From: Streptosporangium sp. NBC_01495
GTDB lineage: Bacteria; Actinomycetota; Actinomycetes; Streptosporangiales; Streptosporangiaceae
NCBI RefSeq assembly: GCF_036250735.1
Contig: NZ_CP109430.1
Span: forward strand, 8,928,001-8,992,000
Reading direction: 5' to 3'
Length of the DNA stretch: 64,000 bases
Positions 33,311 to 35,109 of this stretch are shown here, piece by piece (positions within the stretch are counted from its first letter, which is position 1; each line of letters starts with the position of its first letter). Below the pieces are notes generated by a model, which was not told the DNA's origin, searched no databases, and saw only the letters and a program-made list of their open reading frames with translations. The translations under genes and the position numbers were made by a program.

Positions 33311-33970
33311 ATGCGCGACGCCTATCACGAAGAACTCGACGCCCTCACCGAGCGGCTGGTCGAGATGACCCGACTCGTGAGGTCGGCGATATCGCGGGCC
33401 ACCACCGCCCTCCTTGACGCCGACCTCCACCTCGCCGAGAGCGTCATCTCCCAGGACGAGGAGGTCAACCGGATCTTCGCGGAGATCGAGGCCACGATCT
33501 TCGACCTGATGGCCAGGCAGCAGCCCGTGGCCGTGGACCTCCGGATGATCATCGCGGCGCTGCGGATGGGCACCGACCTGGAGCGCATGGGCGACCTCGC
33601 CGAGCACGTGGCCAAGATCGCCAGGCTGCGCCACCCCGACTCCGCGATCCCGCCGGAGGTCCGCTCCACCATCCTGGAGATGGGCCAGATCGCCGAGCGC
33701 CTCATCACCAAGACCGGCAGCTGCATCGCCTCGCGCGACGTGGAGTCGGCCCTGGAGCTGGAGTCCGACGACGACGCCATGGACAAGCTGCACCGGAAGC
33801 TGTTCAAGATCCTGATGGTCCCCGACTGGAAGTACGGCGTCGAGCCGGCCATCGACGTGACGCTGATCGGCCGCTACTACGAGCGCTACGCCGACCACGC
33901 CGTGCGCGTCGCGCACGACGTGGTCTACCTGGTGACGGGCTCCCGGCCCCAGGACGCTTCCTCGCTCTGA
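33311..33970 (+). CDS. phoU: Phosphate-specific transport regulator PhoU
   Basis: A 219-residue all-helical protein made of two three-helix repeats with metal-binding E/DxxxD motifs (MGTDLERMGDLAEHVAKIA and RYYERYADHAVRVAHDV). It links the Pst phosphate transporter to SenX3. The open frame starts far upstream but MRDAYHEELDALTERLV is the family start, with GGTGAG just before it. Divergent from senX3 across a PHO box; followed by a strong terminator. Confidence 0.93.
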   Translation: MRDAYHEELDALTERLVEMTRLVRSAISRATTALLDADLHLAESVISQDEEVNRIFAEIEATIFDLMARQQPVAVDLRMIIAALRMGTDLERMGDLAEHVAKIARLRHPDSAIPPEVRSTILEMGQIAERLITKTGSCIASRDVESALELESDDDAMDKLHRKLFKILMVPDWKYGVEPAIDVTLIGRYYERYADHAVRVAHDVVYLVTGSRPQDASSL

Positions 33971-34015
33971 CCCTCACGAAGATCCTCACGAACATCTCCA
34001 CGAACATCTCCACGG

Positions 34016-34060
34016 AAAGAGGGAGGGCCCGCCGCATCCGGCGGGCCCTCCCTCTTTTCT
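34016..34060 (+). terminator. Intrinsic terminator of phoU
   Basis: A perfect 19-bp stem (AAAGAGGGAGGGCCCGCCG and its complement) with loop CATC, followed by CTTTTCTC, 46 bp after the phoU stop. It is preceded by a short tandem of CACGAACATCTC. Confidence 0.93.
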
Positions 34061-34199
34061 CGTACGTTCTGAGATGTCCGGGCTACCGGATTCGTCCGCA
34101 GTGCTCCGATGTTCACGCCGGAGGTGAAGCGAATCCTCTCGCATGGCGGGACAGGCGCCGATTCGCCGCCACGGCGGATTGGTGCCTGGTACCTTGCTC

Positions 34200-34369
34200 G
34201 GGTCGGGTACCGCCGGGCGTGCGGGAACGGAGTTCGTGAGGACTCGAAAGCCTGTGGAGACCCGATAAGACCATCTCGATGGCTCAGGTCGATGAAGCAG
34301 GAAGCCACAGAGGTGTCGCGCGAGTGACACGGGCTGAATCCTCGGCATTCATGCCGAGGAGCACGTCAA
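34200..34369 (+). ncRNA. Orphan IS200/IS605 right end with omega-RNA-like scaffold
   Basis: The sequence GCGGGAACGGAGTTCGTGAG, CCTGTGGAGACCC and GATGAAGCAGGAAGCC, then GAATCCTCGGCATTCATGCC and GAGGAGCACGTCAA, follows the pattern I know from the 3-prime end of actinobacterial TnpB elements: the guide scaffold (omega RNA) overlapping the right-end hairpin (34340-34359). No TnpB or TnpA gene remains upstream; only about 140 bp separate it from the phoU terminator. The terminal TCAA overlaps the gpmA stop codon, so the guide position is gpmA sequence. Transcription is not shown. Confidence 0.6.
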
Positions 34370-35109
34370 CTGCCCTGGTTGGCCACGGCCTCGATGGCGA
34401 CCTCGGCGGCGGCGGGGTCGAGATACCGGCCCCCCTTGGTGACCGGGTGGAAGTCGGCGTCCAGCTCGTACCGGAGCGGGATGCCGGTGGGGATGTTGAG
34501 CCCGGCGATCTCGTCGTCGCCGATCCCGTCCAGGTGCTTGACCAGCGCCCGGAGCGAGTTGCCGTGCGCGACGACCAGCACGCTCCTCCCCGCCGCGAGG
34601 TCGGGCACGATCTGGTCGTACCAGTACGGCAGCATGCGCTCGACGACGTCCTTGAGGCACTCGGTCCTCGGCATCAGCTCACCCGGCAGGAGCGCGTAGC
34701 GGGCGTCGCCGGCCTGGGAGAACTCGTCGTCGTCGGCGATCGGGGGCGGCGGGACGTCGTAGGAGCGGCGCCAGAGCATGAACTGCTCGTCGCCGAACTC
34801 GGTCCGCGTCTGCGCCTTGTCCTTGCCCTGCAGAGCGCCGTAGTGGCGCTCGTTCAGCCGCCAGGACCGGGAGACCGGGAGCCAGAGCAGGTCCGCCGCG
34901 CCCAGCGCGAGGTTGGCCGTCTGGATCGCCCTGGTCAGCAGGGAGGTGTGCACCACGTCGGGGTGCACCCCCGCGTCGAGCAGCAGCCGCCCGCCGCGTC
35001 GTGCCTCCTCCTCGCCCTTGGCCGAGAGCCCCGCGTCCACCCATCCGGTGAACAGACCCTTCGCGTTCCACTCACTCTCACCGTGCCGAAGCAGCACCAA
35101 AGTCGACAT
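34366..35109 (-). CDS. gpmA: 2,3-bisphosphoglycerate-dependent phosphoglycerate mutase
   Basis: Glycolytic enzyme interconverting 3- and 2-phosphoglycerate (247 aa). The catalytic His is in [10 protein letters not shown] near residue 8; [22 protein letters not shown] and the second His in [15 protein letters not shown] are present. Its neighbours (YbjN protein, mshA, senX3-regX3) match actinobacterial order. An IS605-type end abuts the stop codon without disturbing the protein. Confidence 0.95.

Follow-up and report, generated by a model that had tools for sequence, protein, structure and literature searches.

A PATE-like IS200/IS605-type element at gpmA of a Streptosporangium with a candidate TnpB guide RNA as its cargo

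Omega-RNAs without a nuclease gene in cis and Geobacillus elements without tnpB have reportedly been described by Altae-Tran and colleagues in 2021 and by Meers and colleagues in 2023. The PATEs of Haloquadratum have no terminal inverted repeats, carry palindromes near both ends, cause no target duplication and encode no transposase; their ends are related to those of IS605-type elements, and some of them arose by internal deletion (PMC3119063). The guide RNA of TnpB, termed omega-RNA or reRNA, is in ISDra2 (PMC8612924) composed of the 3′ end of tnpB and the right end of the element, with the flanking DNA as guide and the target motif on the left. RAGATH-18 is the guide RNA of IS607 TnpBs, and PMC11061315 counts 10,258 of 16,029 RAGATH-18 RNAs as adjoining IS607 TnpBs, so that a share lies elsewhere. 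PATEs and TnpB guide RNAs are known separately, and their combination here appears to be a new variant; a word-match search of openly licensed papers found no description of a multi-genus lineage that consists of an omega-RNA alone and has a -10 box of its own.

The DNA analysed here (the window) is a stretch of 64,000 nucleotides from Streptosporangium sp. NBC_01495 (NZ_CP109430.1, positions 8,928,001 to 8,992,000). Positions 34087-34369 on its plus strand form a complete non-autonomous IS200/IS605-type, PATE-like element of 283 bp, with a left end (a palindrome with CTAC beside it), a right end (a hairpin and TCAA) and an intact omega-RNA scaffold. A preliminary description had placed an orphan TnpB-type scaffold at 34200-34369; the RNA part of that span stands, but the span is too short, omitting the left end and left third (34087-34199), and the -10-like box, the multi-genus family and the gpmA stop codon supplied by the insertion had also been missed. 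The features are as follows.

33311-33970, plus strand: phoU.
34022-34056, no strand assigned: G+C-rich hairpin of the phoU-gpmA spacer, read from the sequence, with similar hairpins seen by eye in the spacers of relatives.
34083-34086, plus strand: CTAC adjoining the element on the left, by analogy the left cleavage site and TAM.
34088-34136, plus strand: left-end imperfect palindrome, GGATTCG...CGAATCC, read from the sequence.
34154-34186, plus strand: second hairpin, upstream of the -10-like box, from sequence reading and a related locus (L073).
34187-34195, plus strand: TGG-TACCTT, the -10-like box (TANNNT) of the guide RNA, at an offset conserved among orphans.
34197-34369, plus strand: TnpB-type omega-RNA (reRNA) scaffold, from a covariance model match and covariation on 33 rows.
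34336-34339, plus strand: GAAT at the foot of the right hairpin, from the sequence.
34339-34360, plus strand: right-end hairpin TCCTCGGCA-TTCA-TGCCGAGGA, with 7 of 9 pairs changed on both sides.
34366-34369, plus strand: TCAA, by analogy the right cleavage site; its minus strand gives the gpmA TGA stop.
34370-34389, plus strand: guide slot in the flank, identical to the antisense strand at the 3′ end of gpmA and to the empty-site target.
34366-35109, minus strand: gpmA (phosphoglycerate mutase), with the last codon and stop replaced through the insertion.

The hairpin that closes the structure, the overlap of the terminal TCAA with the gpmA stop (34366-34368, minus strand), the antisense orientation of the guide slot to the end of gpmA and the loss of both protein genes had each been noted in the preliminary description and were borne out here; no tnpB-like or tnpA-like sequence was found within about 1.5 kb of the element. 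The element thus lacks tnpA, the Y1 HUH transposase gene of autonomous IS200/IS605 elements. Its start (CGGATTCG) and end (CACGTCAA) form no terminal inverted repeats, which sets it apart from classical MITEs and agrees with the PATEs as defined in PMC3119063. It shares with them palindromes near the ends (34088-34136 and 34339-34360), the lack of a target duplication at the gpmA empty site, with which a second copy, aligned to one relative, is consistent, and a length too short for a transposase together with ends that match those of larger elements, here tnpB elements of about 1.8 kb. It differs from the Haloquadratum PATEs in holding a covarying TnpB guide scaffold and a -10-like box that recur across genera; the accessible text of PMC3119063 mentions no guide RNA.

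When 34196-34369 is folded by itself, its stability exceeds that of all 200 shuffled versions (z -2.85), and the omega-RNA is predicted to start at about 34202. The letters of GAAT at the hairpin foot are the same as those of what we take to be the right guide of IS608. The left-end palindrome is 75-80% similar to the left ends of six tnpB-bearing elements of about 1.8 kb in other genomes, which share both ends with the element; tnpB is present in all six and a tnpA-like frame in five of them, the frame in L133 being apparently broken. In L073 the second hairpin sits between the left end and the tnpA stop and is perhaps a tnpA terminator. At gathering scores the only Rfam match in the window was a tRNA, and no family reached its gathering score on the element; miRNA-like matches at 34000-34081 fell on the spacer hairpin below gathering scores and were taken as chance. 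Plasmid and phage collections gave no match.

In the host genome (G000, 11.1 Mb, genus g1) the element occurs three times, the copies being 98% identical and all on the plus strand; the other two also measure 283 bp each when counted from the end of CTAC. The stretch that the three share runs from about GCTAC, followed directly by CGGATTCG, to CACGTCAA; outside this stretch the flanking sequences appear to differ. In 14 of 15 congeners the phoU-gpmA spacer runs into gpmA without the element, the comparison of this spacer that the preliminary description had proposed. The locus examined in the remaining congener (G013) does not take in gpmA, which was not found near phoU there (L075), and the spacer continues into coding-like sequence that could, as a guess from reading it, be a group II intron reverse transcriptase. 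At the insertion point 13 of the 14 have CTAC and one (L084) has TCAC, followed by YTGCCCTGG in 12, and two have CGGCCCTGG. Read on the opposite strand, the CTA is TAG, the stop codon of gpmA, so that the CTAC left of the element corresponds mostly, in relatives, to this stop plus one base. Compared with the CTACCTGCCC form (L086, L088), no base has been duplicated or lost, and the end of GpmA has changed from NQG(K/R) followed by the stop to NQGS followed by a TGA stop taken from the TCAA of the element. Across the host and the 14 congeners in which the site was seen, the insertion is known from the host genome only.

For copy 2, G013 offers a match to the joined flanks that spans the junction (80%). 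The alignment is gapped within the 40 bases to the left of that point and reads TTGC in place of the host's CTAC, and this apparent empty site is consistent with insertion without target duplication. The right flank of copy 2 is present in 15 of 15 congeners; in ten of them, G013 not included, some 165-430 bases separate it from the left flank, so the copy-2 spacer has also undergone other changes. For copy 3, no clear empty site was seen among the congeners. Between the options left by the preliminary description, a mobilisable minimal element is best supported, by three near-identical copies, both ends, the clean gpmA empty site and the consistent site of copy 2, while a dead end suits some relatives and not the window copy. 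The host genome also contains fragments apparently without a full element, one left-end-like (G000:C1:9277059-9277106, 92% over 48 bp) and one right-end-like (G000:C1 3528669-3528725, 78%). In another genome (L071, G012:C1, about 740-905) a shorter element-like stretch of about 160 bp resembles the element at its left end and terminates on the right in GCGTCAA, and has no omega-RNA scaffold.

The link to TnpB comes from a covariance model, R1, built from 33 orphan RNAs, that is, scaffolds standing apart from tnpB. R1 gives 180 bits on the window copy, which was in the training set. The host genome has 26 TnpB zinc-ribbon matches and six Y1 transposase (TnpA) matches, one of them partial. On the 20 of these 26 TnpB loci to which R1 was applied, 11 scored 67-110 bits, 7 scored 24-39 and two (L013 and L021) gave no match. 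In particular, the 3′ ends of L009, L010 and L011 scored 109.8, 109.8 and 106.0 bits (E 3.8e-24 or better), L012 and L015-L020 scored 71-76 bits, and L014 scored 66.8 bits. R1 also matches TnpB right ends in other genomes. The likeness of the orphan RNA to TnpB right ends is far beyond chance, and the scaffold is homologous to the RNA at the 3′ end of tnpB and the right end of its elements. The TnpB right-end layout claimed in the preliminary description is thereby supported, and right ends that match are present both in the host genome and in its genus. Its suggested comparison with omega-RNA models turned out mixed, since curated Rfam models gave sub-threshold matches only and the connection was made by R1, built here from orphans. 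RAGATH-18 (RF03064) reached 27.9 bits at 34251-34303 against a gathering score of 44.9, a weak match, and in contrast to that family the ends here are of IS200/IS605 type.

The locus shares with ISDra2 (PMC8612924) the arrangement of scaffold, flanking guide and left-hand target motif, and differs in having no tnpB in cis, a promoter-like box upstream, and CTAC in place of TTGAT. No TnpB right end in the host genome comes nearer to the element than about 73%, which counts against service by a TnpB in trans, so that such compatibility is hypothetical. L009, L010 and L011 retain three acidic D/E/D motifs, which we take to be those expected of an active nuclease. Six of the host TnpBs (L015-L020) are proteins 89-96% identical to one another. 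Given 26 TnpB against six TnpA matches, many host tnpB elements may rely on TnpA in trans too.

The guide CTGCCCTGGTTGGCCACGGC matches the gpmA end without mismatch in 3 of the 14 congeners, with one mismatch in 8 and with two in 3, and CTAC lies directly 5′ of the target in 13; the right flank thus has the form of a guide whose target motif is found at the empty site. In the host's own genome, the sole perfect match to the first 18 bases is the guide itself, which is preceded by GTCAA and not CTAC. With moderate confidence, and on sequence evidence, we interpret the element as a PATE-type member of the IS200/IS605 group that carries a TnpB guide RNA and nothing else, which would make it a guide-only parasite of TnpA/TnpB elements. 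TnpA supplied in trans would excise and insert it, and a guide RNA made from its own -10-type promoter would have as its terminal portion some 16-20 nt from the adjoining gpmA sequence and be loaded into TnpB made at another locus. Thus armed, TnpB would cleave gpmA at the empty site (CTAC plus guide) and spare the occupied one, and repair would copy the element back into a chromosome that had lost or lacked it. The cutting and sparing steps are modelled on ISDra2 (PMC8612924) and on plasmid gene-drive work (PMC11870625). The supply of TnpA and TnpB from other loci is supported by TnpB zinc-ribbon matches in 22 of the 24 orphan-bearing genomes of the family; G330 and G241, which have an orphan and in which no such match was found, speak against it. 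The orphan of G241 has the longest branch (0.7) and that of G330 ends in TCAC and not TCAA, which would fit decay without TnpB, although two cases prove little.

Orphans with a full scaffold are spread over 14 genera of the family, in no fewer than 24 genomes (38 rows), and are present in two Streptomyces, with one row each in Streptomyces bambusae and Streptomyces sp. B-S-A6. These 40 rows (alignment A2) are a minimum, as the full scaffold was required. A 24-base pattern from the orphan-only part matched in 40 of 341 family genomes at up to two mismatches, where the backwards control also fired, and for this reason only full-scaffold rows were counted; inspection covered part of the two-mismatch matches, so the count is again a minimum. 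Inspected matches in which no scaffold was found were L155, L157, L162, L163, L149 and L171-L173 (two mismatches), L143 and L159 (one mismatch), and L211 from Kiritimatiellae. Alignment A1 of the orphan RNAs leaves out the near copies L002 and L003, L104, L124 and L168 (right end lost or broken), L165 (44-nt insert), and L120, L121 and L125 (start pattern not recognised), of which L120 and L121 enter A2 under the larger loci L179 and L180, and L125 is also in A2. Similarity to tnpA or tnpB was absent from 43 of 44 orphan loci, including that of the window copy, over about 0.4 to several kb on each side, the exception (L167) having a tnpB-like stretch of another type nearby. Many relatives have lost the left end and are therefore probably immobile.

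A tree computed from 128 shared-scaffold columns places all 40 orphans and three tnpB-linked rows (L132, L133 and L014) on one branch (96/92), nested among tnpB-linked rows. The orphan label needs 3 changes against 21 when shuffled, and a single orphan clade was not rejected (p 0.39); the alignment is short and fitted to the model, and its bootstrap not settled. The orphans are perhaps one lineage, although these data neither establish nor reject that all of them go back to one origin. By sequence, the orphans belong to a group within the diversity of tnpB-carrying elements, and the family is a little-described one of several actinobacterial genera.

The orphan RNAs retain their pairing. In the 33 RNAs standard pairs fill 96.6% of pair cells against 88.9% in shuffles, and double changes occur at 19 of 39 pairs (105 cells against 31.1 in shuffles, with 0 of 500 shuffles as high), in a test whose structure was derived from the same alignment; partners slid out of register pair at 34-48%. 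Rows judged by eye to have no left end number 23 and contain 184 changed pairs, of which 33 are broken, against about 128 expected from random change; in 9 rows with a left end the figure is 10 of 63, against about 43, L065 being in neither group. These counts include changes that preceded the loss of the left end, and pair retention alone is therefore no proof of later selection.

Upstream of the RNA, TANNNT stands 17 nt before its start in 28 of the 40 orphan rows, related by descent and so not independent events, and in two more is shifted by one base; it is absent from the expected place in 12 of the 40. None of 27 tnpB-linked rows has it at any offset scanned, and at other offsets in orphan rows it occurs in a mean of 0.06 rows. 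The T, A and T are kept in 30, 33 and 32 of 39, and the middle three letters vary. TANNNT is the form of actinobacterial -10 hexamers, and the box is likely, on this pattern, to be a dedicated promoter for the orphan guide RNA. No -35 box is visible upstream of the -10-like box of the window copy, and a scan for the sigma-70 consensus found nothing at the element.

These results bear on whether the element is a plain PATE, for which transposition in trans is real and the omega-RNA only inherited, unused baggage. We regard this as rather unlikely. PATEs formed by internal deletion from IS605-type elements are known (PMC3119063), mobility requires the ends only, and the three host copies are recent, leaving little time for the RNA to decay; yet compensatory changes keep the RNA pairs across genera, also in rows without a left end, the -10-like box is conserved and specific to orphans, and the RNA is held at one site, beside efp, where the spacer preceding it diverges.

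That site lies in another genus (g36), where in three of six species an orphan stands between genes that, from reading their translations, are aroB-like and efp-like, and a fourth species (G145) has an empty site, GAAGCCAC joined to TAGACTGCC. Across the three species the box and RNA differ by 3.3-4.9%, alike to the end of aroB (3.6-4.8%), and the spacer before the orphan is heavily gapped and diverges by 14-20%. On the other side of the orphan, the efp leader shows a difference of only 0.6-4.0%, so that the constraint could sit on the DNA beside the efp promoter. A second orphan is common to the same three species (L267, G147:C72; L268, G144:C181; L145, G142:C196), upstream of a gene starting MVVDAVRTYLDATSGLNELTRK; it differs by 12.3% between two of them and has lost its core in the third, its right hairpin is eroded, and its upstream flank diverges by 20-26%, above the orphan's own divergence. 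The contrast between the two orphans speaks for constraint at efp, as judged from these divergences. The orphan at the efp site (L146, L147 and L170) ends just before a -10-like box, TAGACT; likewise copy 2 of the host (right junction in L183) lies just before TAGCGT, and L113 precedes TACAAT. Insertion may favour or rewire promoters, an association that consists of these three cases (copy 2, L113 and efp) and that we do not claim.

Could the orphan guide have been kept for host regulation, antisense or TnpB-guided, for example of gpmA or efp? The guide slot is antisense to the end of gpmA, the insertion separates gpmA from the spacer hairpin, the efp copy has been kept vertically in three species, and both it and copy 2 are immediately upstream of -10-like boxes. 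However, the gpmA insertion is known from the host genome only and absent from 14 of 15 congeners, independent copies carry different guides, and the search for another host gene as target found no second site with fewer than two mismatches and four at two mismatches; we therefore consider this explanation improbable. In relatives the G+C-rich spacer hairpin is near gpmA, and here the element stands between the two; the sequence of the hairpin suggests that it is perhaps a shared terminator, and the terminator scan did not call it (34022-34056). If it is one, gpmA messages may run antisense through the guide RNA.

That the element is a decayed remnant of a tnpB element lying here by chance, as the missing protein gene and the decaying orphans elsewhere (L267, L268 and L145) might suggest, is contradicted both by the number of copies and by the empty site at gpmA and is very improbable in view of three equal-length copies of the same internal structure, a precise gpmA junction and the same structure in other genera.

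We return to the reading of the element as a guide-only parasite of TnpA/TnpB elements. Beyond the single locus, we suggest tentatively that the orphans could be a distinct class of mobile guide-RNA genes, which would have shed their proteins, gained a promoter of their own, borrowed TnpA and programmed TnpB against their own empty sites, and which at times would be fixed by the host. Such fixation now and then by the host is what we propose for efp in g36. If the RNA works in trans, a transposon would persist and home with a guide RNA alone, and TnpB would be a shared resource exploited by cheaters, a stage on the way to the separate guide genes of CRISPR systems. The family offers many natural guides with known target sites, and its kept (efp) and decaying (second site) orphans provide a natural contrast on when guide RNAs are retained.
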